Of a stretch of 64,000 bases of DNA, positions 29,574 to 64,000 are shown in pieces; the stretch's first letter is position 1, and each line of letters starts with the position of its first letter. The notes beneath the pieces are model-generated. The model did not search any database, had not been told where the DNA came from, and saw only the letters and a program-made list of their open reading frames with translations. A program made the translations under genes and the position numbers. The DNA comes from a virus. The DNA lies in IMG/VR virus record IMGVR_UViG_3300032323_000939, positions 31,506-95,505 of that record; one strand, written 5' to 3'.

Positions 29574-30701
29574 TTAGTTTGTGTAAACCTTGACGATTGC
29601 TTGGTCTGTAATTACACCAAGACCCCAGATTGCGTACCATGCAAGAGCATGCTCACGACCGAAGTCAAGAACACCACCATCACGTAGTTCAACTGGTAGA
29701 GAGATTGCGTGACCAAAAGCGTTGTCACCAATCATGATAGATTCGTAAACTTCAGCACCGTTACCAGTTGCTGATGTTAAGTAACCTGCTTCTGCTGTGA
29801 AGTTAGCAGACTCTGGGTTACCACCGCTTCCTGGGGCTGTGTTAGCCTTAACAGGAGCATTCCAATAATCAGTTGGTACACCAACAGATGTTGAAGTTGT
29901 GTAAGAAGCGTTAATTGCTAACTTCTTAACCTGAGTTGTTTCGATGAATACTACGTCGTATAGACGACCGATTTCACCTAGCATGAAGTTACCTGGAGCA
30001 GCGTACTTCGTAACTTCGATGAACTCTGGGTTCGAACGAATATCACGAGATTGCTTTGGATGTACGAATTGTACGTATGTCTCACCTAAGCGAGGAATGT
30101 TCTTTCCTGCAAGAGTAAGAGCAGCATCCTTTACAGCACCAGTTGATAACTTGAAGTTACCATCTAGATCTGAAATTTGTGTTGCTTTTGTACCTTCGTT
30201 GTACCAGTCGTTAACACCTTGTACTGATGAACGGTCATAACCGAACACTGCAGAAGTTGCTGCAGACAGTGTGTTACGTGCTTGTAGATCTAGGTATTGC
30301 GCCATGTGGCGACCTAGAAGACGTGACGCAGATGCCATAACGTCATCAAATGATGCGTTAAGTAATAGTTCAGAAACTGCTACTGCGTAGCCGTGCTCTG
30401 CAACTGTAATTGCAATCTGCTCTGCTGTTAATGCAGAAGTTGTCATACGAACACCCTCTGTAAGAGGTGTTGGATCGACAGCGAAGTTCTTGTAGCGTAG
30501 GAAGTTAACACGGAGACCAGGTGCTACACCTAGTTCTGTCTTCTTAACTGCAAATTGTTCGAATCGAAGAATTGGCATTGCCTGGAACAAAATTTCTTTT
30601 GACCAGATTGTTTGAATCGCTTGATTCAGGCTTGAGTTCGAGCCTGAGTAAGCGGTTGGGGCGGAAGCGAGTTGCCCTGTACCTGTAATTGCACTTGCCA
30701 T
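29574..30701 (-). CDS. Major capsid protein, N4 gp56-like
   Basis: This 375-residue protein has TIWSKEILFQAMPILRFEQF, GLRVNFLRYKNFAVDPTPLT, then EGVRMTTSALTAEQIAITVA and EHGYAVAVSELLLNASFDDV, all hallmarks of the N4-gp56 type HK97-fold capsid proteins. RSNPEFIEVTKYAAPGNFML followed by GEIGRLYDVVFIETTQVKKL is the conserved second half, and GDNAFGHAISL precedes the C-terminal strands. It lies between the scaffold and the decoration-like gene, the usual order. The length is typical. It forms the icosahedral shell. Confidence 0.95.
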   Translation of the reverse strand: MASAITGTGQLASAPTAYSGSNSSLNQAIQTIWSKEILFQAMPILRFEQFAVKKTELGVAPGLRVNFLRYKNFAVDPTPLTEGVRMTTSALTAEQIAITVAEHGYAVAVSELLLNASFDDVMASASRLLGRHMAQYLDLQARNTLSAATSAVFGYDRSSVQGVNDWYNEGTKATQISDLDGNFKLSTGAVKDAALTLAGKNIPRLGETYVQFVHPKQSRDIRSNPEFIEVTKYAAPGNFMLGEIGRLYDVVFIETTQVKKLAINASYTTSTSVGVPTDYWNAPVKANTAPGSGGNPESANFTAEAGYLTSATGNGAEVYESIMIGDNAFGHAISLPVELRDGGVLDFGREHALAWYAIWGLGVITDQAIVKVYTN

Positions 30702-30735: not shown

Positions 30736-31503
30736 TTAACCGAACAGTCCCTGACCACGATTGCTTGCTGCAGTGCCAAGTAACTTGGCTCTTTGTTTCG
30801 CATAGTCCGCCAATGACATTTCCCTGATTGAATCAGGCGTGTACGATTTTTGTTCCGAGTCATTATCGAGGGGTCCTGCGGCAGGATTAGTAATTCTAGT
30901 TCCTGCCATTTGTTGTCTTGCGCTTTGCATCGCTTGTTGAGCGGATGACAAAATTCGAGCAGATTTTTCTTTTAACATTGCGATGCTCTGCTCAACCTCA
31001 TCAGCATTGTTTCCATCAACTAGATCAAGAAGTTCAGGAACAATATTTTCCCGTTCTTGCTCAATACGTTGTTGACGATAATTCATAACTTCTTGGAACT
31101 TACGTTCTTGATCTAGGAGCGCAAAAGCACGTTCTCTTTCAAGACGTTCAGTATCTAATAGAGCCTGAAATTCTTGCTCCTTCTTTAGGAGGAGTTCTTT
31201 AGCAGAAAGTTCAGATTCTTCTTGTTCTTTCTGCAGTGCTGTTTTACGGGCTTCTTCTTCAGCAATACGTTTTTCACGTTCTGCTTCTTTAGTTGCTTGA
31301 TCTTCACGAGCCTTCTTCAAAGATGCAAGTTCTTCTTTCATCTTTTCCATCTGTGGGTACAATTTTGCTTTCTCTTGTTCACGAGCCTTAGCAATATCGT
31401 CTGCGCTATACACAGAATTTACCTCACTTGTGTTTTCTACTGCTGGAATTGCCGCCAGAATTTCTGGAGACAATAGGTCAGCATTCTCTACGGTATTTTC
31501 CAT
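30736..31503 (-). CDS. Capsid scaffolding protein
   Basis: This protein of about 255 residues is almost entirely helical and charged, with a long Glu/Lys/Arg/Gln coiled coil (about 35-165) followed by VPELLDLVDGNNADEVEQSI and a C-terminal basic element (RAKLLGTAASNRGQGLFG). That is the composition of phage scaffolds, and it directly precedes the capsid gene. The ATG at 31503 has AGGTG six bases upstream, so it is preferred over the GTG at 31512. No protease motif is visible. Confidence 0.85.
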   Translation of the reverse strand: MENTVENADLLSPEILAAIPAVENTSEVNSVYSADDIAKAREQEKAKLYPQMEKMKEELASLKKAREDQATKEAEREKRIAEEEARKTALQKEQEESELSAKELLLKKEQEFQALLDTERLERERAFALLDQERKFQEVMNYRQQRIEQERENIVPELLDLVDGNNADEVEQSIAMLKEKSARILSSAQQAMQSARQQMAGTRITNPAAGPLDNDSEQKSYTPDSIREMSLADYAKQRAKLLGTAASNRGQGLFG

Positions 31504-31633
31504 AGTAATCACCTATTTTTCTTGGGTCGTTGTCCGTATGCCTTTCGGCGTATCACTGGGTTTAGTACAAGACAATTTCATTACAAAATGTGTGAAATGT
31601 CTCGCTATATCTGATTTTTTTATCAGAATTCTT

Positions 31634-33370
31634 TTATCCCTTGTCTACTGTTCTCCTTTGTGGAATCTTTGTTCCATAGGCATCAGTGACAAGTTTATTT
31701 CGGATCTCTGACTCTGCAGATTTTTCAATACCCATTAACTCTTGGTTTTCTGGAGTTGCTGCATTTTCAGGGGTCTCAGGACCAGACATTCCATCTCCTA
31801 AGATATCCCCATCACCCATTGGTTGAGGTTGCATTGGGATAGCACTGCTTCCATCAGGACCAGGCATCATTCCAGTCATATCCATAATTTGTTTTTGAAT
31901 TTGAATTTTAACAAGTTGTAGAGCACCATCAGCCTCAGCATCAGCCATAAGTTCTTGACGAATCTCTTGTAGTTTCTCTTCTGGAAACTCTTCTCCAAGT
32001 TGACGTAATGCGCCTTCTTTAGACTCTAATCCCATTCCAAGTTTAGTTTGAATTTCATTTAATACAATTAACTTATCTAATGGGAGAGGTTGTGGGAACT
32101 GTGCGTAGTTTATGTAGGTAATTGGATCATTAGGATCTAGTTGAGTTACTTGGCCATCTTTGATTGGACCATCTTCTTCTGGGTTGTATAAGAACGATTC
32201 AGGTTCTTTAATAGCAAGAGTCTTTATAACTAACTCATTAATCTTTTCTAAACCTTTTCCATACTGTGCAACTTTTTGTGAATAACGATTCATCAATGGC
32301 TGGTATTGAATGGACAGCGCCACACCAGATGTGTTTGAAATTGGTTGAACTTGTCCCAGTGCGGTTTCTGGAATGTTCATGATCTCATGCATTGAGCGCT
32401 TTAATAGTTCTAGGTACTTCAAGGCTCCGTCAATACCTTGTGCACCGCCTTCTAAGTTGAAGACTTGAGCATCTTTTGGAAGACCGCCCCAAACCTTCTT
32501 AGCACCTTTTTCTAAGTTAGAGGCTTTAGCACCCACGATTACCGTTACTGGTGATGCGTGGTAGTTAATGATGTCAGCGACATCAGTGCTAATTTCGTTG
32601 TATGCACGGTTTATAGTGATGATGTCGTGTGCGTCGGAGAGACCCCACGGCGATCCTGAAACAGGAACATTAGGTATGTGAACTACAGGGACTATGCCAA
32701 GAGGATTTGGACGTGAGTCAATTAGTTCATCGTTGACATATTCTTCAATCATGTCATCAGTAAGAATTTCAGTGTATGTAAATACTTGACGAGTACCTTC
32801 TAGAGATGTTCCCCAAAAACGATACTTTTGTTTAAAACGTAGTAAGCGTGTGCGGTCATGTGGGTGGAACTCAGGAAAACAAAATGAAGAGTTCATAGGA
32901 AGAATACGAACACGACCTGGATGCAGTAATCCTGCAGTATCTGTCCATGGCTCTTCGTAAGCAACCTTTACAAAACAATCTCCAGTAATACCACCTTGTT
33001 GTCCCATTTCAAGAAGTACACGCATCTTGTCATTGTCTATTTCCCAAACACGCTCCAAGCGGTCAGGAATAATGGCCTCAGTCGCTTTCGGTGAACGATA
33101 ATGAACACCACGGCCAAAAGTAAAACGAGAAAGATAATCATTAAAAGCACGGTAATAGTTAACAGCAATCTGCATTTCGCCTTGCTCACGGCGATACCCC
33201 CAGTGATGTCCTAGATACATCGCCCAGTTTAAAGAGTAACGGTTTAGGCGAGGACCGTGGACTTCAAATTCTTCATCAGCAAGTTCTACTAATCCAAGAG
33301 GAGAAATAGAGATAGTTAAGTCGGAAGACGCCGCTCTATACGATGGCGGACTAAAGTCCAAAAATGACAT
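31634..33370 (-). CDS. Portal protein
   Basis: This 578-residue protein has the portal pattern: EQGEMQIAVNYYRAFNDYLS, then NPLGIVPVVHIPNVPVSGSP with WGLSDAHDIITINRAYNEIS, a crown-like helical block with LKRSMHEIMNIPETALGQVQ, and SNTSGVALSIQYQPLMNRYS. The Met/Gly/Pro-rich C-terminal 70 residues are likely flexible. The N-terminal region is shortened relative to many portals. It forms the dodecameric channel through which DNA is packaged. It lies between the terminase and capsid genes. Confidence 0.92.
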   Translation of the reverse strand: MSFLDFSPPSYRAASSDLTISISPLGLVELADEEFEVHGPRLNRYSLNWAMYLGHHWGYRREQGEMQIAVNYYRAFNDYLSRFTFGRGVHYRSPKATEAIIPDRLERVWEIDNDKMRVLLEMGQQGGITGDCFVKVAYEEPWTDTAGLLHPGRVRILPMNSSFCFPEFHPHDRTRLLRFKQKYRFWGTSLEGTRQVFTYTEILTDDMIEEYVNDELIDSRPNPLGIVPVVHIPNVPVSGSPWGLSDAHDIITINRAYNEISTDVADIINYHASPVTVIVGAKASNLEKGAKKVWGGLPKDAQVFNLEGGAQGIDGALKYLELLKRSMHEIMNIPETALGQVQPISNTSGVALSIQYQPLMNRYSQKVAQYGKGLEKINELVIKTLAIKEPESFLYNPEEDGPIKDGQVTQLDPNDPITYINYAQFPQPLPLDKLIVLNEIQTKLGMGLESKEGALRQLGEEFPEEKLQEIRQELMADAEADGALQLVKIQIQKQIMDMTGMMPGPDGSSAIPMQPQPMGDGDILGDGMSGPETPENAATPENQELMGIEKSAESEIRNKLVTDAYGTKIPQRRTVDKG

Positions 33371-43351: not shown

Positions 43352-43615
43352 TCAGTCTTGTTGGATTCCCATACGTTCTAAATACTTCTCTTTTTCACTC
43401 ATAAGGTATTCTTCAATCCTTTTATACTGAATTTGAACCTGTTCTGAGGTTGCTTCTATTTGTTCTGCTGTCATTTCTTTATTTAAATCCTTAAATGTCT
43501 CTACTGCCAAATCTAGTTCAGTTTTGGCTAGTGCTGCTTTTAATTGTGCGTCTTTCCATAAAAATTCTGCGTGTTCTTCTTTTCTTTGTTTTCTTTTATC
43601 CTGTGTCTTAGACAT
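43352..43615 (-). CDS. Coiled-coil phage protein
   Basis: This 87-residue charged helical protein (HAEFLWKDAQLKAALAKTEL, VETFKDLNKEMTAEQIEATS) has no cysteine or hydrophobic segment. GGAGG lies seven bases before the ATG. It lies between the holin-like and HslV-like genes. An adaptor or regulator for either neighbour is possible. Confidence 0.6.
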   Translation of the reverse strand: MSKTQDKRKQRKEEHAEFLWKDAQLKAALAKTELDLAVETFKDLNKEMTAEQIEATSEQVQIQYKRIEEYLMSEKEKYLERMGIQQD

Positions 43616-43742: not shown

Positions 43743-44288
43743 TTACTTATATTGTTCAATCTCCTGATATGGTCCAGATGTAAAGGCTGTTATCTTAGAT
43801 GCCGCTTCCATGGCTTCCATAGGTGTAGCACCAACCCATAGAGCGCCCAAGGCGTAGGTTCCACCAGAACCAATGGTGTAAAAACCCTCTACAGTTCTAA
43901 TTACAGATAGATCTTGGTCAATATCAAATAGTTCCCCACCAACAGCCATAATGAACTGAAATCTTAATCCATCTTTAGATTTATCGTGGTCTTCACTAAA
44001 GTCATATCCATTATCAACTAGACACTTACGCAAAGAAGGCATGGCCTTAGAAATCATAAAGTGATAGACATCTTTTGCATCTTTAGCAGTTAACTTTGGC
44101 GGAGTCCATATGTGTTGGGCAATATCGCATGGAGACACCTCACCAGCACCAGCAATTAAGAAGTCACCACGTTCTGCAATCTTCTTCATTTGTTCGTGAC
44201 GATATACTCGTCCGTTATCATCCGTTACTTGATTGTCTGCAAGTAATACACAATGATCTTCATACTGTACCCCAATGATTGTGGTCAT
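43743..44288 (-). CDS. HslV/proteasome-beta-like Ntn-hydrolase
   Basis: The ATG at 44288 has AAAGGGG six bases upstream. It gives M-T-T-I-I-G-V, so removal of Met would expose Thr1, the catalytic residue of HslV and proteasome beta subunits. Counting from Thr1, D17 is in LLADNQVTD and the K33-equivalent is in MKKIAE. The conserved Ser loop is in YTIGSGGTYALGALWVG, and the GAGEV segment fits the oxyanion glycine region. Length (180 after Met) matches HslV. No HslU-like ATPase is next to it. Confidence 0.82.
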   Translation of the reverse strand: MTTIIGVQYEDHCVLLADNQVTDDNGRVYRHEQMKKIAERGDFLIAGAGEVSPCDIAQHIWTPPKLTAKDAKDVYHFMISKAMPSLRKCLVDNGYDFSEDHDKSKDGLRFQFIMAVGGELFDIDQDLSVIRTVEGFYTIGSGGTYALGALWVGATPMEAMEAASKITAFTSGPYQEIEQYK

Positions 44289-44305
44289 CGACATCCCCTT
44301 TCAGT

Positions 44306-44345
44306 AGAAAGCCCCCCTAGGATACCAGAAGCATCCAGGAGGGCT
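44306..44345 (-). terminator. Terminator-like hairpin after the endolysin
   Basis: On the minus strand AGCCCTCCTGGAT pairs (with G-U pairs) with ATCCTAGGGGGGCT around a short loop, followed by TTTCT. It lies between the endolysin stop and the HslV-like start. Confidence 0.5.
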
Positions 44346-44365: not shown

Positions 44366-45106
44366 TTATAGGAGTTTGACCAGTTCTGCCCAGGTCTTAG
44401 GTCCAATGATGCCATTAGAGTCTAAGTTCTTATGGTTGTCTTGGAAAGCAATTACCTTGGCTCTTGTCTTTGGGCCATAGTTTCCATCAGCAATTAGGCT
44501 AAGTGCTCTCTGGATTATCTTTACACCTTCGCTCTTATCTCCAGGTTTAATAGTGCCTGGGAAAGCAGGAGCCTCTGGTGCAGGAATCTTTGCTGTAACT
44601 TCGTTACCAGAATAGTTTGGACGACCAAACCCAACAATAGAAACCATAACTTTCTTTTTATTGGCAATATAGCCACGAGTCTTAACTGCGACCTCTCCAC
44701 CATTACGTTGATCTCCTTTAGGATTGCCAGCAGTATTACCTTCAATACAAGTAACTGTTCCATCTCCGTTGTTCTCAACTACGATACCTACGTGGGAGAT
44801 TCTATCTACACCATCTCCAGGAAAATCAAAATAAGCAATATCGCCAGGTTGTGGTGATGCAGACTTTGCGTCTGTCCAAGTTCCCATCTTCTTGAAGGCA
44901 GCGGCACCTGCTACGGTTGATACCGTATTAGGGACCTTTACTCCTGCTTCTTTAGCGCACCACATAACAAATGATCCGCACCAAGGTAAGAAATTTGCTT
45001 TAGTAAAGGCACCGTACTTGGTTTCATTGTCTTTTGGACCTTCAATAGTTCCTACTTCTTTTTTTGCTACCGCAATTAGAGCGGCTGCCGTGTTCTTGTC
45101 TGCCAT
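44366..45106 (-). CDS. Endolysin: CHAP domain plus PG_binding_1
   Basis: This 246-residue protein has a CHAP amidase/endopeptidase domain with catalytic Cys43 in LPWCGSFVMWC and His105 in DRISHVGIVV. Supporting segments are SPQPGDIAYFDF and TCIEGNTAGN (E122). A linker rich in Pro/Ala follows. A peptidoglycan-binding domain (about 185-246) has GDKSEGVKIIQRAL, DGNYGPKTRAKVIAFQ and GIIGPKTWAEL. No signal peptide is visible, so release through a holin is expected. Confidence 0.92.
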   Translation of the reverse strand: MADKNTAAALIAVAKKEVGTIEGPKDNETKYGAFTKANFLPWCGSFVMWCAKEAGVKVPNTVSTVAGAAAFKKMGTWTDAKSASPQPGDIAYFDFPGDGVDRISHVGIVVENNGDGTVTCIEGNTAGNPKGDQRNGGEVAVKTRGYIANKKKVMVSIVGFGRPNYSGNEVTAKIPAPEAPAFPGTIKPGDKSEGVKIIQRALSLIADGNYGPKTRAKVIAFQDNHKNLDSNGIIGPKTWAELVKLL

Positions 45107-45993: not shown

Positions 45994-46496
45994 TGAAACT
46001 GCCTAAAGTGTCCAGGATGAATATTGGTAGGAACATATTCTTTGCCCATCTTCTCATCGTAACTTCCTTTATCGGTAAAGTTAGTAGTCATTGCTAAGTG
46101 ACCGCCTAAGAAGTTTTCTTTTCTTTCACCTAATCCTGGTTGACGAAACACTGTTACTGGCACATGAGATACGCCTTCTGCCATTGCTGCTTCTAATCTG
46201 TGGTGGCCTTCTCCAACAACTCCCCACTTATTAGCATGATCATATGCAATCATAATTGGATTGTTAATGCCTTTACCTTTTTGAATATCTCCTCTAATTC
46301 CAGCAATAGTCTTTTCACTAGAAGGCTGTGCATCAGCGCCTCTGCGTCTGTGTTCCATTAAAGGAATTAAACGCTCAGTTCTAACCATGCCAGTAGCACT
46401 CTCTGTTGGATCTCCTTCAAGATGACCCTTGCCACCTGCTTTTCGTTGTTGCACATAATCAGGAACAGGAACATTAAATTGTTTTTGGTTTAACAT
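45990..46496 (-). CDS. ParB-like nuclease-domain protein
   Basis: This 168-residue protein begins MLNQKQFNVPVPDYVQQRKA and has RTERLIPLMEHRRR, NNPIMIAYDHANKWGVVGEG and HHRLEAAMAEGVSHVPVTVF. The 'G-[EN]-G-x-H-R-x-x-A-x-x-x-G' motif is the DNA-binding/CTPase-like box of the ParB/Srx superfamily. Members with isolated domains are frequent in phage accessory regions. It overlaps the upstream and downstream effector genes by one to four bases. Confidence 0.78.
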   Translation of the reverse strand: MLNQKQFNVPVPDYVQQRKAGGKGHLEGDPTESATGMVRTERLIPLMEHRRRGADAQPSSEKTIAGIRGDIQKGKGINNPIMIAYDHANKWGVVGEGHHRLEAAMAEGVSHVPVTVFRQPGLGERKENFLGGHLAMTTNFTDKGSYDEKMGKEYVPTNIHPGHFRQFQ

Positions 46497-46957
46497 TATG
46501 CTGTCATCTCTTTAGGAGTTTTATATGTGCGTCTTCTTGCTGGACGTTTACTGTCTTTACTCGCTACCCAAGAAGAAAAAGTGGGTGACTCATTTCTTCT
46601 TAGCCCATTCCAATTACCTGTAACAGGATCTGCTTCAGGTCCAGAGATACCAGTAACTTTTACTTTTGCTCCAGGTTTAACTGGAACTTCTTTTTCTGGA
46701 CTTTTAATATCTTTATCATTTAGATCAACTTGGGCACGGCTTAGTTTACGACTATTTGTCTCTACTGCACTGATAGGTACTTCTGCATGCATTACGGTGC
46801 CAAATGATCCAGCAAATCTTCTTGCTACTTTAGGGTCTGCTGACCAATGCATTCCAAGAGGTACGTCTTTTCTAAACTTACGAGTTACACCACGATGTAC
46901 TTGAAAAGTTAATTCTGGTTGATTCCACTGTCTTCCTAAGTTATTTTCAGCAGCCAT
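46496..46957 (-). CDS. ADP-ribosyltransferase-like small protein
   Basis: This 153-residue protein starts MAAENNLGRQWNQPELTFQV at TAATG with the upstream gene; an ATG at 46969 is in frame but not preferred. It has HRGVTRKF (R), GMHWSADPKVARRFAGSFG (S) and SPEKEVPVKPGAKVKVTGIS (E). That is the R-S-E order of arginine-type ADP-ribosyltransferases. The C-terminus is basic. Activity is untested, and the assignment is by motif. Confidence 0.6.
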   Translation of the reverse strand: MAAENNLGRQWNQPELTFQVHRGVTRKFRKDVPLGMHWSADPKVARRFAGSFGTVMHAEVPISAVETNSRKLSRAQVDLNDKDIKSPEKEVPVKPGAKVKVTGISGPEADPVTGNWNGLRRNESPTFSSWVASKDSKRPARRRTYKTPKEMTA

Positions 46958-47310
46958 TATGCTTTCCACTTTCTTGGTGGAGTGTATGTGCGTGTGCGGT
47001 CTCTTTTGTCACTTAATTTAGTGACAGCAGTTACGTGCACGGTGCTACCTTTCTTAACAGGAATCTCATTCTCCCAATACTCGTCATAGACTTGATTCTT
47101 CTTTAAGACGTCAGGGCGAGTCTCACGACTCTTCTTAGCCACTTGACCTTCAATAACAACACCTGGTCCTCGCCGAATAGGATTTCTTGCAAAACCTACC
47201 GCTCTCTCTGGATCTTCTGTCCAGTGCATGCCAAGAGGCTTCTTAACATCTGTAGTAGAACTTAATCCACGATACAGAGTATGAAACTGAGTAGAAGATA
47301 AATTACTCAT
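46957..47310 (-). CDS. ADP-ribosyltransferase-like small protein
   Basis: This 117-residue protein reads MSNLSSTQFHTLYRGLSSTT, then PLGMHWTEDPERAVGFARNP, VVIEGQVAK and WENEIPVKKGSTVHVTAVTK. The R, S/T and E elements align with its neighbour (46496-46957), so these are paralogues with a common ART-like scaffold. It overlaps upstream and downstream genes by one to eight bases. Confidence 0.6.
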   Translation of the reverse strand: MSNLSSTQFHTLYRGLSSTTDVKKPLGMHWTEDPERAVGFARNPIRRGPGVVIEGQVAKKSRETRPDVLKKNQVYDEYWENEIPVKKGSTVHVTAVTKLSDKRDRTRTYTPPRKWKA

Positions 47311-47554
47311 GTTCTTCCCTTGGTTCAGAGGTTTGACGCTTCTTTACGTTATAGCCAACCCTTGGACCTTGCATTAAATCTTTAATTCCCTCAGCACTAG
47401 ACATCTGTGTCTTATTTAAGTTGTTGTTTACCCATGCAGATATGTACTCAGATCCGCCTTCGTAATCTACGCTCTTAACTTTAAATCTTTCCTGGACGGA
47501 ATCCTTTCCGTAGCCAGTTTGAGAGTAACCTGTAAACTTAGACTTCTTCTTCAT
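47303..47554 (-). CDS. Unrecognised basic protein, 83 residues
   Basis: This protein starts MKKKSKFTGYSQTGYGKDSV, then QERFKVKSVDYEGGSEYISA and WVNNNLNKTQMSSAEGIKDL. It has a short strand-helix pattern but no known motif. It overlaps its neighbours by four to eight bases inside the effector cluster. No tag-like N-terminus. Confidence 0.6.
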   Translation of the reverse strand: MKKKSKFTGYSQTGYGKDSVQERFKVKSVDYEGGSEYISAWVNNNLNKTQMSSAEGIKDLMQGPRVGYNVKKRQTSEPREEHE

Positions 47555-47811
47555 AAGTAATCTTTACCGTAGTTCTCTCCATGCACCTTCTTTTGGACTG
47601 CTGGTACGAAGTGCTTGTGTGGAGTAGTTCCTGCAACTCTGTCACCTGCTTTATCGTGTTCGGCTTTATGCGCCTTCTCATCTATACCTGTGCGAGACCA
47701 TCCACCTTTTGGAGTAATGCCATGTTCTTTACGCAAATGTTCGGCAACAGACATATTAAATTTAATAGGAGTAAATTTAAACTGCTTACCTAAGTTATCG
47801 GATGCAGCCAT
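47551..47811 (-). CDS. His-rich small protein with N-L-G-x-Q-F start
   Basis: This 86-residue protein starts MAASDNLGKQFKFTPIKFNM and has VAEHLRKEHGITPKGGWSRT, then AHKAEHDKAG and TTPHKHFVPAVQKK. The His-rich pattern (H-x4-H, H-x3-H) suggests a metal site. I have seen similar 'H-L-x-x-x-H-G' small proteins in actinophages, without an assigned function. It shares the short N-terminal signature of its cluster. Confidence 0.65.
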   Translation of the reverse strand: MAASDNLGKQFKFTPIKFNMSVAEHLRKEHGITPKGGWSRTGIDEKAHKAEHDKAGDRVAGTTPHKHFVPAVQKKVHGENYGKDYL

Positions 47812-47943
47812 TTACTTACTGACCTTTGGCTTGTATGGCTCAATGCGAGATTTAATTGTTCCATCTTTACGCATAATTACAATCCAACCATCTTTAATTA
47901 CTTTCTTGTTAAATGGTTCGTTGCGTGTGTATTTAGCACTCAT
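47812..47943 (-). CDS. Small basic protein, 43 residues
   Basis: This 43-residue frame starts MSAKYTRNEPFNKKVIKDGW then IVIMRKDGTIKSRIEPYKPK. The 'G-W-x-V-I-M-R-x-D-G' strand pair resembles the start of small beta-hairpin proteins. It overlaps the Arr-like gene by four bases and ends directly before the next ATG. Confidence 0.62.
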   Translation of the reverse strand: MSAKYTRNEPFNKKVIKDGWIVIMRKDGTIKSRIEPYKPKVSK

Positions 47944-48257
47944 TTGTGTTCTCCTGTAATCATAAAGCCATGAGGTGAGGAATAGAACCTCTCACCCTCT
48001 ATGTTCCCAGATTCTTCTTTAACTTCTTTGCTAACTGGCTCTACTTTATAGACCTTCACTGGATTCTTCTCAAAACCTTTTGGCATCTTAGTCTCGCCAA
48101 AGAATCTTGCTTGCCCTGGATCACTTGTTGCCCAGGCACGAGCCATGCGGCCTTCACCCTCAGTAACAGCAGGAAATATAAAGCCACCACTTACATCTGC
48201 ACGAGTGCCGTGGTACATATCAGGAAACTGCTTAGGAGATAAGTTACGGCTACTCAT
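47940..48257 (-). CDS. Arr-like (rifampin ADP-ribosyltransferase fold) small protein
   Basis: This 105-residue protein reads MSSRNLSPKQFPDMYHGTRA, with GGFIFPAVTEG, MARAWATSDPGQARFFGETK and VKVYKVEPVSKEVKEE, ending SPHGFMITGEHK. The order 'Y-H-G-T-x-A-D-[LV] ... A-x-x-[AS] ... V-Y-x-V-E-P ... [IV]-T-G-E' matches the Arr family of small ADP-ribosyltransferases. It is shorter than typical Arr (about 140 residues). Activity and target are unknown. It carries the cluster's N-L-S-x-x-Q-F start. Confidence 0.65.
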   Translation of the reverse strand: MSSRNLSPKQFPDMYHGTRADVSGGFIFPAVTEGEGRMARAWATSDPGQARFFGETKMPKGFEKNPVKVYKVEPVSKEVKEESGNIEGERFYSSPHGFMITGEHK

Positions 48258-52745: not shown

Positions 52746-53612
52746 ATGACTACATCAACAACTAAATCCTTGTTCGTTCCAACATTGGAACAAACAGGTC
52801 ATTACATTGAGCGCACCTTTGCTGGTGGCATTAACGAAACTCAGATGTATGACTTCGCATTAGAAAACAAAATGAATGTTTTGTTAAGTGGTGATGCTGG
52901 AACTGGTAAAACAACTTCTAGCATGGCTTACGCATCAAAGCGCAGAATGAACTTCTTTGCCGTTCCTTCTAACAACGCCATTGATTTCACACAATTAGTT
53001 GGTGGCTTGTTCCCTGATGAGAATGGAAAACTAAAGTGGATTGACGGCGCAATCACAAAGATTGTTCGTGAAGGTGGTTTGTTATTAATTAACGAATTAA
53101 ATAACGCACCTAAAAACTTATCGCAATACTTGATGAGTTTGTTAGATGATCGCCGATCAATTACTTTAATGAGCCACGATAACGAAGTTATACATGCTCA
53201 CCCTGATCTATTAGTTGTTGCTGATATGAACCCAAATTATCGTGGCACACAATTACTAAACGAAGCATGGAAAGATCGCTTCGAGATCAAACTAACTTAC
53301 TCATACGATACGAAAATTGAAAAGCAAATTATCAAATCCAGTTCATTACTGGAACTTGCGAATGGTATGCGTTCAACATCTCGTATTGATGAGGGCTCAT
53401 CATCACCTTCAACAATCTTTGAAACACCAGTATCAACTCGTATCTTAAAAACATTCGAGAAACTTGCTAAGGGTCTTTCTTATGATTTTGCTAGTGATGT
53501 TTTCGTTAACAACTTCTCTGATGACGAAAAGCCAGCAGTTCGTATGTTGCTAGAAGGCAACGACTTCAACATCAAATCCGATCTCGGATTACTTGAAACA
53601 ACAAACGCTTAG
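52746..53612 (+). CDS. MoxR-type AAA+ ATPase (CobS-like)
   Basis: This 288-residue protein has Walker A GDAGTGKT (49-56), Walker B LLLINE (112-117) with NNAPKNLSQYLMSLLDD after it, a sensor segment VVADMNPNYRGTQLLNEAWK and a DRFE arginine finger (R178). MoxR-type ATPases work with VWA proteins to remodel or load metal into a target complex. Such a partner follows 14 bases downstream. A CobS-like cobalt chelatase part is an alternative. Confidence 0.88.
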   Translation: MTTSTTKSLFVPTLEQTGHYIERTFAGGINETQMYDFALENKMNVLLSGDAGTGKTTSSMAYASKRRMNFFAVPSNNAIDFTQLVGGLFPDENGKLKWIDGAITKIVREGGLLLINELNNAPKNLSQYLMSLLDDRRSITLMSHDNEVIHAHPDLLVVADMNPNYRGTQLLNEAWKDRFEIKLTYSYDTKIEKQIIKSSSLLELANGMRSTSRIDEGSSSPSTIFETPVSTRILKTFEKLAKGLSYDFASDVFVNNFSDDEKPAVRMLLEGNDFNIKSDLGLLETTNA

Positions 53613-53626
53613 TTAGGAATAAACAA

Positions 53627-55492
53627 ATGGATTATCCATTCATAGATGTAGGTGTCGCATTAGCGCAATCTGATCTAAAGAAAAAACAAGAAACAGAAGC
53701 GGAATTAAAACGCCAGCGAATTGAACGCTTTGCTCAGTTCTTTGGTCGAGTTAATTCAGCACTAACACTTCGCAAGGTGCGTGTAAAAGTTGAGAACTCA
53801 ACTATTGGCGCACCTGCTTGGTCAGGTGCTAGTGAAGTTGTTTTCAATTCACGATTACTTGGCAATCTAAATACGGCAAAAGAAATTGCTGGACTTCGTG
53901 GTTTAGATTTACACGAAGTTAGCCACATTCTTTATACACCAAGAGAAGGTTCTGAAATCTTTGAATGGTGTCGTGATAATGATGTTCTATTTGCTTACAA
54001 CGCATTAGACGATCAACGAATTGAAACTTTATTTACAACTCGTTATCCGTCAACGATTGATTGGTTCACATCAACAATTCTTATTCACTTTGTTGATGAC
54101 CCAAAAGCGTTTGAAACTTCTTATGGTTTATTGCGTGGTCGGCAATATCTACCAACTGAATTGTTGGCACGATCACGCAACGCATATAAGTTCCAAGATC
54201 AATTAGATGAAATCTGCGACATTGTTGACCAGTATCGGTTATTAACTTTTCCTGCTGATACTGAAATCGCAAAAGATTTAATTCGCAGATTTGATGCGTT
54301 GATGCCAAAACAAAATATGCCCCAAGAAGGATTAGCGGATTGGGAAAAAGATTTAATTGGTAAAGAAGGCAACAAAGTTGTTGTCGCAATTAAATCTCCA
54401 TTCGGTCATGGTGAGCGACCACATGAAGGTATCGAGAGTTCAGCAGTATCTCGACCAGTTGCGCCAATTCAACAGAAGCGTGATCTTGAAAGAGTTAAAT
54501 CTCAACCAGTAAAAGATGATGCGAAATTAGCAGAGCAACTTAAATCAGAACCAGTTATTGAAATTGATTTAACTGGTGATGAAGGTAGCGGTGTTGGTAA
54601 TGCTTCATCAGATCAAAACACTAGGGCTCTTAACGATATGTTGAGCGACATTCTTAGCGATCAAAAAATTGCTAACGAAATCAACGACATCATCAGACAA
54701 ATTGGTGGCTTACCTTCTCTTGCTACCAATAATTCTAAAGAGCCAAGAAAATCACGATACGAATTACAAACTCCTGATGCTAAAACTTTTCAAGCATCTT
54801 TATCTTTCGGTAGAGAGTTGGAAAGATTAAAAGCAACATTCGAACCTGCTTGGGATAAATACCAATCACAAGGTCGTTTGAAAGCGGAGAGATATTTGCG
54901 TGGTGATGATCTTGATGTTGTGTTCGATCAATGGTCAGAAGGCAAAGATGATGCTACTGAAATTGAATGTGTGATCTTGTTAGATAACTCAGGTTCAATG
55001 AGTGGTCGTAAAGAAATCTCTGCTTATCGTGCCATGTATGCGATTAAAAAAGCATTAGATCGCATTAACGCTAATACAACAGTTCTTACCTTTAACACAT
55101 CTACGAATGTTTTGTATCGTGCTGATGAAAGAGCAAACAATTCAATTCGTAATGCTGGTAGCACAGGTGGAACTGACCCACAGGAAGCAATCGAATACGC
55201 CACAAAACTTCTTGCTGAAACTGAGAAGCCAGTTCGTATTTTCTTTGTAATTACTGACGGAGAATGGAGTGGTGATTTAACAATTCAACATGATGCCATT
55301 AAAAAAATGGCTAACGCTGGAGTGCTAACTTCATTCGCTTACATAGCAGATGATAATGAGAGCGTTCAGTTAACACCTGAAAAATCTCATTACTGCGAAA
55401 TTAGTGCGGTTGTAAATAACCCACTTAATTTAATTGGTATGTCTAAATCAATCGTTAAGTATGCGATTGGTCGCAGACTAGTTAATAACTAA
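53627..55492 (+). CDS. Metallopeptidase-like/VWA protein (CobT/DUF2201-like)
   Basis: This 621-residue protein has an N-terminal half with GLDLHEVSHILYTPREG (HExxH at 96-100) and YNALDDQRIETLFTTRYPS (E133), consistent with a zincin-type peptidase or metal site. The centre (about 270-400) is charged and poorly conserved. The C-terminal VWA domain has the MIDAS D453-x-S-x-S in LLDNSGSMSGRKEI, plus GGTDPQEAIE and FFVITDGEWSG. It is the partner of the preceding MoxR ATPase. The unit may mature a protein or insert a metal. Confidence 0.85.
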   Translation: MDYPFIDVGVALAQSDLKKKQETEAELKRQRIERFAQFFGRVNSALTLRKVRVKVENSTIGAPAWSGASEVVFNSRLLGNLNTAKEIAGLRGLDLHEVSHILYTPREGSEIFEWCRDNDVLFAYNALDDQRIETLFTTRYPSTIDWFTSTILIHFVDDPKAFETSYGLLRGRQYLPTELLARSRNAYKFQDQLDEICDIVDQYRLLTFPADTEIAKDLIRRFDALMPKQNMPQEGLADWEKDLIGKEGNKVVVAIKSPFGHGERPHEGIESSAVSRPVAPIQQKRDLERVKSQPVKDDAKLAEQLKSEPVIEIDLTGDEGSGVGNASSDQNTRALNDMLSDILSDQKIANEINDIIRQIGGLPSLATNNSKEPRKSRYELQTPDAKTFQASLSFGRELERLKATFEPAWDKYQSQGRLKAERYLRGDDLDVVFDQWSEGKDDATEIECVILLDNSGSMSGRKEISAYRAMYAIKKALDRINANTTVLTFNTSTNVLYRADERANNSIRNAGSTGGTDPQEAIEYATKLLAETEKPVRIFFVITDGEWSGDLTIQHDAIKKMANAGVLTSFAYIADDNESVQLTPEKSHYCEISAVVNNPLNLIGMSKSIVKYAIGRRLVNN

Positions 55493-58187: not shown

Positions 58188-58516
58188 GCGACAACTTAAA
58201 CCAAGATCAAAAAGATTTAATTAATTCGGTTAAATTCGCAACTGAGTTTTTAAAGATTATTCGTGGATTTAAAGTAGATCAACAACGCACCGATAGCCTT
58301 CCAGTTGAGGTTAAAGAATATATAGCGAATGAGCATCTAAATACTTTAATTGCCGATCATGGATTAGAGCCTGAGATGTTAGTTTGGGGATTAGTTCACA
58401 TAATTGAAGTCTTATTACGAACAAGTGAAATAAGTCCTGATGATCTTGTAATAATTATGGAACAGTATGTAGATTTTGTTAAAGATAGACCCGATTATTT
58501 TGGAGAGGATAAATGA
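58184..58516 (+). CDS. Unrecognised early helical protein, 110 residues
   Basis: The product is helical and acidic (QDQKDLINSVKFATEFLKII, LEPEMLVWGLVHIIEVLLRT, DLVIIMEQYVDFVKDRPDYF). No catalytic motif. It lies between the Cys-rich protein and the WhiB gene with ATGA overlaps. It may be a regulator. Confidence 0.65.
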   Translation: MSDNLNQDQKDLINSVKFATEFLKIIRGFKVDQQRTDSLPVEVKEYIANEHLNTLIADHGLEPEMLVWGLVHIIEVLLRTSEISPDDLVIIMEQYVDFVKDRPDYFGEDK

Positions 58517-58806
58517 GCCAATCAGCACGATTAACAAACAAAGCAATATCTTTATCTATGCCTACACCAAGAAAAATTGATGAAGCACCATGCCAATCAA
58601 CTGACCCTGAAACATTCTTTACTGACCCAACAGAAACAGAAAAGATTGTTTTAGCAAAAACATTTTGCGATAGATGCCAACCAGTAAATAAACATGCTTG
58701 TTTATCTTTCGCATTAAATAACAAAGTTAAATACGGAATTTGGGGTGGACTAACTCCTGATGAAAGACAAACTTTAATTCGCAGACAGAGTAGGAGTAAA
58801 AAATGA
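58513..58806 (+). CDS. WhiB-like transcription factor
   Basis: This 97-residue protein has the WhiB arrangement: a first Cys in EAPCQST, then FCDRCQPVNKHACLSFALNN and the helix-turn YGIWGGLTPDERQTLIRRQS with basic C-terminus. WhiB proteins bind an iron-sulphur cluster and occur in actinobacteria and their phages. The usual C-x2-C-x5-C is here C-x2-C-x7-C, a possible change in cluster geometry. It strongly supports an actinobacterial host. Confidence 0.9.
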   Translation: MSQSARLTNKAISLSMPTPRKIDEAPCQSTDPETFFTDPTETEKIVLAKTFCDRCQPVNKHACLSFALNNKVKYGIWGGLTPDERQTLIRRQSRSKK

Positions 58807-62839: not shown

Positions 62840-62858
62840 CAAAGCCATAGCAAAAGAC
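62810..62858. repeat. 21-base direct repeat
   Basis: AGCAAAGCCATAGCAxAAGAC occurs at 62810-62830 and 62838-62858 with one difference. The core GCCATAGCARAAG is close to GGCATAGCARAAG copies inside the integrase gene (about 61202 and 61420). Confidence 0.7.
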
Positions 62859-64000
62859 TATTGATTGTCTTTAATTAGCCTAACTTCACACGCATCAGTA
62901 GTGCAGTAAGCCTCACCAATAGCATCAGATGCCATACCAGCATACACACCAGCCAAATCAATTGGGAATAATTTCATTACTCCTTCGCTTTCATATTCTT
63001 CAGCAGTAATTTGTGTGTAAGGCATTTGAGGATAGGTAGCATTACCAGAAGGTAAGAAAGAAACCGTCTTTAGTTGACCATCGTACATATGCAAAGCCGT
63101 ACCAATAGCCGAAGCCTCTGTCTCTGGATTAAAAGAAATAGTTACAGACACAGAGTTGTCTGACCAGTATCTCTGAGCAGTAGCAGCAAGTGCCATCTTC
63201 TCATAGATGCTTACATCTTTTTCAGATCTCTTTGCTTTAGATTTAATAGGGAAGAATACAACTGAGGTAGTTTCAGGAGACTCAGATGCTGGTTCTACAC
63301 GATAGTTTGCCATCTTAAACAGTGGAAGCATTGGATCAGAGTTAGCAAAACGAATAGCACGATTAAAATACTCACCACCAACAGTCCAGTGAACTCCTGG
63401 ACTTTCACCAGCAAGGATAGAGACAGTTCCTGATGGCTTAACTGTGGTCATCTTAATTGATTCACGGATACCCAACCACTCTGAGTAGTTTGTATCGTAT
63501 TGTTTAATAGTTTGATATCCCTCATCCATCCATTGACGAAGAACTGGAAGACCCTTGTTATCAGCAAAGTTAGCCACACCCGATACTGAAGTACCAATGC
63601 GACGATTGCGTTGCATAATTGCGTTTGTCTCTTCCCAGTGAGTAGGAAGTAAAGTAACAGTTTTAGCGTATAGATAAGCAAACTTAAGTGTGCGTTTAAA
63701 ATCTTCAAGATTGTCATGACGATTTAAGTAAGTCTCTACCAAGGTGCAACACTCAAAAGACTCTAGTGATTGTTCAGCACATGGGTTGTATCCAGCAATA
63801 CGCCAATCTTTGTTATTAATTGGATCTGCAAGACGACCGTATTGTTTTGATATATCCATCCAAATAACCCCTGGCTCACCATTACGGGCAATGCCATCAA
63901 TTATGTTGTCTAAGTTATCTCCTACATTTACAGAGACAGAGTTGTTAGACATCCATGCCCAGCCTGGGTTTGATGGATCATACGAATTTCTATCAGGGAA
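62858..64000 (-). CDS. nrdJ: Adenosylcobalamin-dependent ribonucleotide reductase (class II), partial
   Basis: The frame is open to the window's right edge and lacks its N-terminus. It reads FPDRNSYDPSNPGWAWMSNN, then EPGVIWMDISKQYG, YNPCAEQSLESFECCTLVET (N-x-C-x-E active site with the thiyl Cys and Glu), MTTVKPSGTVSILAGESPGV and the C-terminal redox pair in CTTDACEVRLIKDNQ (C-x4-C). That matches monomeric class II enzymes (RTPR/NrdJ), which use B12 and reduce nucleotides for DNA synthesis. The ATG at 63952 is internal, not the real start. Confidence 0.93.
   Translation of the reverse strand, partial: FPDRNSYDPSNPGWAWMSNNSVSVNVGDNLDNIIDGIARNGEPGVIWMDISKQYGRLADPINNKDWRIAGYNPCAEQSLESFECCTLVETYLNRHDNLEDFKRTLKFAYLYAKTVTLLPTHWEETNAIMQRNRRIGTSVSGVANFADNKGLPVLRQWMDEGYQTIKQYDTNYSEWLGIRESIKMTTVKPSGTVSILAGESPGVHWTVGGEYFNRAIRFANSDPMLPLFKMANYRVEPASESPETTSVVFFPIKSKAKRSEKDVSIYEKMALAATAQRYWSDNSVSVTISFNPETEASAIGTALHMYDGQLKTVSFLPSGNATYPQMPYTQITAEEYESEGVMKLFPIDLAGVYAGMASDAIGEAYCTTDACEVRLIKDNQ

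Follow-up and report, generated by a model that had tools for sequence, protein, structure and literature searches.

The question raised by this locus is what a protease of the proteasome type does in a phage. The window, as the whole stretch of DNA under analysis is called here, is 64,000 nucleotides long and corresponds to bases 31506-95505 of a 95.5-kb virus record that is possibly a fragment. The open reading frame of interest lies exactly where the sequence-only reading had placed it. Its features follow, with residue counts covering 165 distinct homologues from all fetched loci.

43743..44288, minus strand: proteasome-like (HslV/BPH-like) N-terminal threonine protease, 181 aa, from ORF, Pfam, PHROG, alignment, AlphaFold2 and Foldseek evidence
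44289..44301, minus strand: ribosome-binding region GAAAGGGGATGTC, with AAAGGGG 6 nt before the ATG at 44288, an arrangement that recurs in relatives
44283..44285, minus strand: codon of the catalytic Thr1 (residue 2, the first after Met removal); Thr 164/165, Ser 1/165
44235..44237, minus strand: codon of the Asp17 equivalent (residue 18); Asp 159/165, Glu 6/165
44181..44183, minus strand: codon of the Lys33 equivalent (residue 36 in Met numbering); Lys 165/165
43860..43871, minus strand: GSGG loop, residues 140-143 (proteasome Ser129 region); G140 and G142 165/165, S141 Ser in 154/165

The mechanical ORF call begins at 44294, two codons before 44288. That start can be ruled out, as 44288 is the sole start common to relatives, which have ATG at this position, or GTG in L039, L044 and L050, with Thr next. 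A few bases ahead of this start, relatives also have a purine-rich site of the AGGGG type, and no codons before the start are conserved. The M-T-T start at 44288, proposed earlier on the strength of the AAAGGGG site, is therefore correct, and with Thr directly after Met, Thr1 would become exposed once Met is removed.

The 181-aa protein matches Pfam model Proteasome (PF00227) with E=4.3e-5, above the family cut-off, and matches the profile phrog_1040, 'peptidase HslV family', over its full length (residues 1-178, E=3.8e-29). An AlphaFold2 monomer prediction, made with 35 relatives as input, has a pLDDT of 91.8 and a pTM of 0.87 and contains the expected strands and two helix pairs. When this model was used as a Foldseek query, the betaproteobacterial proteasome homologue (BPH) structure 5ovs came first (E 4e-11), followed by many HslV structures (3ty6, E 6e-10) and proteasome beta subunits; a profile search of PDB sequences also ranked BPH (E 3e-8) above HslV. 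The match to the proteasome family and fold is not due to chance, and the structural comparison suggested by the sequence-only reading gave a confident proteasome fold with HslV among its matches.

T1, T2, D17 and one lysine do not vary among 21 aligned relatives. The register of Thr1, Asp and Lys was judged from alignments; a small insertion ahead of K36 makes this residue, rather than K35, the Lys33 equivalent, and K35 is ruled out as K36 alone is invariant. Asp17, the lysine and the GSGG loop, which had been described as all in place, are conserved across the homologues. The fold, Thr/Ser1, Asp17, Lys33 and a glycine in the Gly47 region place the protein in the proteasome-like superfamily (group I, Ntn hydrolases). 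Values of dN/dS between relatives, from 0.016 to 0.13, indicate strong purifying selection and, together with residue conservation, make the protein very probably an active threonine protease.

A phylogenetic tree that includes a single E. coli HslV places the window protein in a clade of phage proteins that does not include E. coli HslV, BPH, or rhizobial and streptomycete homologues. BPH is the closest solved family, yet it forms a separate branch (supports 76-88). The initial description as an HslV/proteasome-like protease holds as to the proteasome type and the intact catalytic set, but not as to HslV proper, since BPH scores higher in the profile search and the tree branch is separate.

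The record encodes a portal, a phrog_1357 capsid, tail genes and two WhiB regulators, one of which is listed here.

58513..58806, plus strand: WhiB-like regulator, an actinobacterial-host marker

WhiB is the usual marker of actinophages (PMC6802176), and these genes together point to a tailed phage of actinobacteria as the source; the host is probably among freshwater actinobacteria. Relatives in IMG/VR number 134 by a protein-based scan and at least 566 by a profile-based scan. Two conserved motif patterns, which detect close relatives only, were run against the genomes of 84,980 species of bacteria and archaea and found one relative, in a 109,918-bp contig (L152, CAINGU010000031.1) of a metagenome-assembled genome named as a cyanobacterium. 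Its neighbours, judged by eye, are WhiB-like, ThyX-like and GroES-like genes, which suggests phage DNA binned with the cyanobacterium-named genome. A bacterial origin of the family was rejected, as this search for close relatives gave only one match in 84,980 species, and that match on a phage-like contig. Among 291 cyanobacterial genomes, searched with regard to CPH, three weak further matches occur besides the one misbinned phage contig.

Several other genes of these phages were noted. A subtilase-family (S8) protein with an apparent signal sequence is encoded in the same 95.5-kb record, outside the window (L153:11170-12012, minus strand), and L119:11532-12428 (minus strand) is a second subtilase-family case with an apparent signal sequence; the Pfam S8 match is for L153. 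The S8 subtilase is a second, unrelated protease in these phages. At positions 46496-48257 the window has several small paralogues next to one another, whose 'LYRGLSS...GMHWTEDPERAVGFA'-like pattern recalls ADP-ribosyltransferase-like proteins, and positions 62858-63952 by eye resemble part of a class II ribonucleotide reductase.

The sequence-only reading had proposed that the protease matures virion proteins. The head genes of the window bear on this proposal.

31634..33370, minus strand: portal protein; the genes between it and the capsid include no protease
30736..31512, minus strand: putative scaffold between portal and capsid genes, by position, with no family match
29574..30701, minus strand: major head protein (phrog_1357), a family shared with the portal-adjacent lineage

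That lineage has genomes of 38-40 kb, in which TerL is followed by portal, protease, in some cases a small acidic ORF, then virion-type proteins, a scaffold-like gene and phrog_1357 capsid; TerL, portal and capsid are confirmed there. The protease begins 5-18 bp after the portal in 71 contigs, which is the usual place of a head protease. Searches for Peptidase S78, ClpP and S49 found none in this lineage or in the 95.5-kb record, which extends to the whole record the earlier statement that the window has no classical prohead protease; these negatives refer to S78, ClpP and S49, as positive controls were silent in the search for S77 (T4-type). Such an arrangement is what would be expected of a prohead or virion maturation protease, an unrelated stand-in for the usual serine proteases that cuts scaffold, portal or internal virion proteins, and adjacency to the portal through the whole lineage could still signal a head-related role.

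In a portal-anchored scan, 73 of 79 assessable portals were followed by an HslV-like gene, which in some cases is of a distinctly divergent subfamily (about 170 or 76-86 bits). No HslV-like gene lies behind the other six portals, one of which is 98% identical to the portal of L124, a phage that carries the protease, and none was found elsewhere on their contigs, which are partial genomes of 12.6-26 kb. An unrelated ORF of 86-89 aa stands in the protease's place behind these six portals, and scaffold and capsid of three protease-less contigs have nearly equal lengths and identical ends and are co-linear with those of protease-carrying phages. The gene is thus retained in most cases, can be exchanged, and does not seem to be needed for the head as judged from these gene comparisons. 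The replacement ORF (L336, L341, L345, L354, L355, also L356) is basic-to-acidic, shows no evident relation to proteasomes and sits between the portal and the next virion-type gene.

Two more observations count against a maturation role. The protease gene of the window phage is far from portal and capsid, and the T5-like Pantoea phage AAS21 encodes an S78 prohead protease in addition to its HslV-like protein. Because portal relatives without the gene keep co-linear scaffold and capsid, and because the gene occurs in several unrelated contexts, maturation of virion proteins is disfavoured. Across the six portals and the three head-gene comparisons, all on partial contigs, the gene appears neither to be required by the head proteins nor to vary with them, and we consider a head protease unlikely.

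If the enzyme instead degrades proteins, the source of its substrates becomes relevant. The model places a long charged loop at the pore.

43965..44012, minus strand: long charged pore loop after helix 74-92 (NGYDFSEDHDKSKDGL), read from the model's secondary structure; its counterpart in alignments is the acidic BPH pore loop

The pore loop is short in HslV, which is gated by HslU, and long and acidic in BPH, which is apparently unfoldase-free (Fuchs 2021, PMC8665760). By alignment and predicted structure, the window protein has the BPH-type long acidic loop after H1/H2, and this likeness fits an unfoldase-free enzyme. No AAA_2 (HslU/ClpX-type) ATPase occurs anywhere in the 95.5-kb record, possibly a fragment, and none scored above the cut-off in the other searched phages; the search covered phage records, and 14/14 control genomes were positive. 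The earlier remark that no unfoldase is adjacent to the gene therefore extends to the record as a whole, and a cognate HslU, as expected for HslV, was not found within this scope. The record does encode another type of ATPase.

52746..53612, plus strand: MoxR/CobS-like AAA_5 ATPase, a strong match, about 8.5 kb from the protease gene
53627-55492: CobT-like VWA partner of the AAA_5 ATPase

HslV and proteasomes require ATPase partners, and the protein could by the same token supply the peptidase core and work with an unfoldase of the host (ARC/Mpa, ClpX, ClpC) or with the MoxR/CobS-like ATPase of the phage, thereby redirecting ATP-dependent degradation. In Actinomycetia phage DSL-LC01, too, a strong AAA_5 ATPase is paired with a CobT-like VWA protein. 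The AAA_5 gene does not adjoin the protease gene, however, and matches in the portal-adjacent lineage are weak and sub-cut-off, so that the ATPase is not an obligate partner. With HslU-type ATPases lacking in the searched phage records and a pore loop resembling that of unfoldase-free BPH, a borrowed unfoldase seems rather unlikely, slightly more so than a head protease.

The neighbourhood of the window gene differs from that of the portal-adjacent lineage and recurs in about 60 contigs, in which an endolysin gene lies upstream of the protease, mostly at 38-132 bp, and a small helical-hairpin gene lies downstream.

44366..45106, minus strand: endolysin (CHAP + PG_binding_1), directly upstream of the protease gene, adjacency in about 60 contigs
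44310..44345, minus strand: stable RNA hairpin (z = -3.8), terminator- or attenuator-like, with a short U tail, between endolysin and protease
43352..43615, minus strand: helical-hairpin protein of 87 aa, syntenic partner gene; AlphaFold2 pLDDT 92.8, two long helices

A terminator scan made no call at the RNA hairpin. The region of its 3' arm (GGGGGGCTTTCTACTGAAGGGG) recurs in relatives and is possibly an attenuator.

The position directly behind an endolysin raises the prospect of a lysis-cassette member that acts on the cell envelope or on holin/endolysin timing. Against this, the protein has no apparent signal peptide, the stable RNA hairpin separates the two genes, and in L072, L076, L080, L115 and L116 the endolysin is elsewhere while protease and hairpin genes remain in the same region. 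Other lineages place the protease by portal, RuvC-like or RecT-like genes. A lysis role drawn from the endolysin neighbour is disfavoured by these relocations, and we regard it as highly improbable.

The helical-hairpin gene is the more constant companion. An HslV-like gene is also present in 93 of the 99 loci that carry it. For the six that remain, the HslV gene of the L276 contig lies outside the stretch (compare L027), L247 and L297 share their contig with an HslV-like gene elsewhere, the hairpin gene of L326 begins 21 bp behind an HslV-like gene of a divergent type, and L258 and L293 are truncated close to the edge. In L109 the protease is behind a RuvC-like gene and the hairpin gene is still in the same region. 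The hairpin gene thus accompanies the protease after relocation and also adjoins divergent proteases. A fold search with its product returned generic helical hairpins, best E 1, with no significant match. From this synteny, the product is likely an adaptor, activator or substrate of the protease in the window lineage, and the gene would be the best lead to a partner.

Additional contexts were found. RecT-like and methyltransferase genes are near the protease in L090, L093 and L053. Three unrelated phages, Geobacillus virus E3, Pantoea phage AAS21 and Microbacterium phage Pumpernickel, have an HslV-like gene next to or near thymidylate synthase genes, and that of phAPEC8 is near PhoH and a lysozyme. 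An endolysin-anchored scan found six loci with a divergent Thr1-Cys2 subfamily in the protease slot. This subfamily (MTCIAVVRDK...) occurs behind the endolysin at L238:3650-4171 and L241:3648-4064 and in L239, L242, L243 and L252; in some members Glu replaces Asp17.

A gene that is usually present, replaceable, mobile and sometimes lost while the head genes stay unchanged is more in keeping with an accessory protease that acts on proteins of host or phage than with a head protease. Our preferred interpretation, to which we give a probability of roughly 0.55, is an autonomous, BPH-like accessory N-terminal threonine peptidase, encoded in the late region of phages of freshwater actinobacteria and not an enzyme of capsid building. 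Host methionine aminopeptidase would remove Met1 and expose Thr1, and the subunits would self-assemble into a double ring, as in BPH and HslV. Substrates would enter without an ATP-driven unfoldase, and the O-gamma of Thr1, helped by Lys33 and Asp17, would cleave polypeptides that are unfolded or loosely folded. During infection the enzyme would more likely remove or trim particular proteins of host or phage than process capsid proteins for assembly, and in the window lineage the product of 43352-43615 would be a likely adaptor, activator or substrate. Literature searches on phage HslV function returned nothing specific, and no biochemistry was found for the subfamily of the window protein.

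An Ntn enzyme of this kind could also be non-degradative, either a site-specific ligase or transpeptidase resembling connectase, which is a specific ligase within the superfamily, or an amidase acting on a bond particular to phage or host. In connectase the first helix pair is missing and there is an S3/S4 insertion (PMC8665760), whereas the window protein has a compact core with both helix pairs predicted, and we judge such an activity improbable.

A more specific version of the accessory peptidase would be a phage-specific, unfoldase-free proteasome-like machine fed or activated by its own helical-hairpin cofactor (43352-43615). We offer this as a tentative proposal, doubtful at present. If true, phages of abundant freshwater actinobacteria would possess a minimal equivalent of the systems that activate proteasomes independently of ATP, and would use it to reshape the proteome of the infected cell.

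In 2021, Fuchs, Alva and Lupas (PMC8665760) reported the proteasome homologues PPH and AAH in phages; gene context gave them no hint of function, and they found neither an AAA+ partner nor an AAH in actinophages. New here are a subfamily in hundreds of presumed freshwater actinophage contigs, in two strictly conserved gene neighbourhoods, its exchange in place for other proteasome subfamilies, its occasional loss, and the pairing of one lineage with a helical-hairpin gene. Planktophila phage F5 (38.9 kb, OX376641), isolated on a Ca. Nanopelagicales strain (PMC10202952) and culturable, has a portal-adjacent relative of the gene, and near relatives without the gene are natural controls. Gene context, the pattern of swap and loss, and this culturable relative make the function testable.

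Among known systems, PPH and AAH resemble the window protein in being group I proteasome homologues encoded by phages, with neither a propeptide nor an AAA+ partner. PPH has about 140 residues and lacks helix H2 (PMC8665760). The window protein differs in its 181 aa and in the presence of helix 74-92, which rule out identity with PPH. Presumed AAH proteins of Rhizobium, Sinorhizobium and Streptomyces, whose AAH identity is inferred, belong to another clade, and homologues of phages E3 and D'Alembert also group away from the window protein, which is probably not an AAH. With phrog_1040 it shares a full-length match, phrog_1040 itself being a family label only.

HslV (ClpQ, the peptidase of HslVU) shares the fold, the catalytic residues and the MTTI...D...K...GSGG signature; the window protein differs in having no detected HslU, a longer pore loop and a branch separate from E. 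coli HslV. BPH (PDB 5ovs, 5ovt, 5ovu) is the best solved match by profile and by fold, and has in common Thr1/Asp17/Lys33, a long acidic pore loop and no dedicated unfoldase. Identity to BPH is about 18-20%, and the window protein, known here from sequence and a monomer model, is phage-encoded and has its own tree branch. The protein of DSL-LC01 (WJZ48484, annotated HslV) comes likewise from an actinophage and shares the catalytic set at about 32% identity, but carries a basic extension at its C-terminus, and its gene neighbours a WhiB gene. That of Planktophila phage F5 (178 aa), also an actinophage protein with the same catalytic set, is about 41% identical and differs in that its gene follows the portal.
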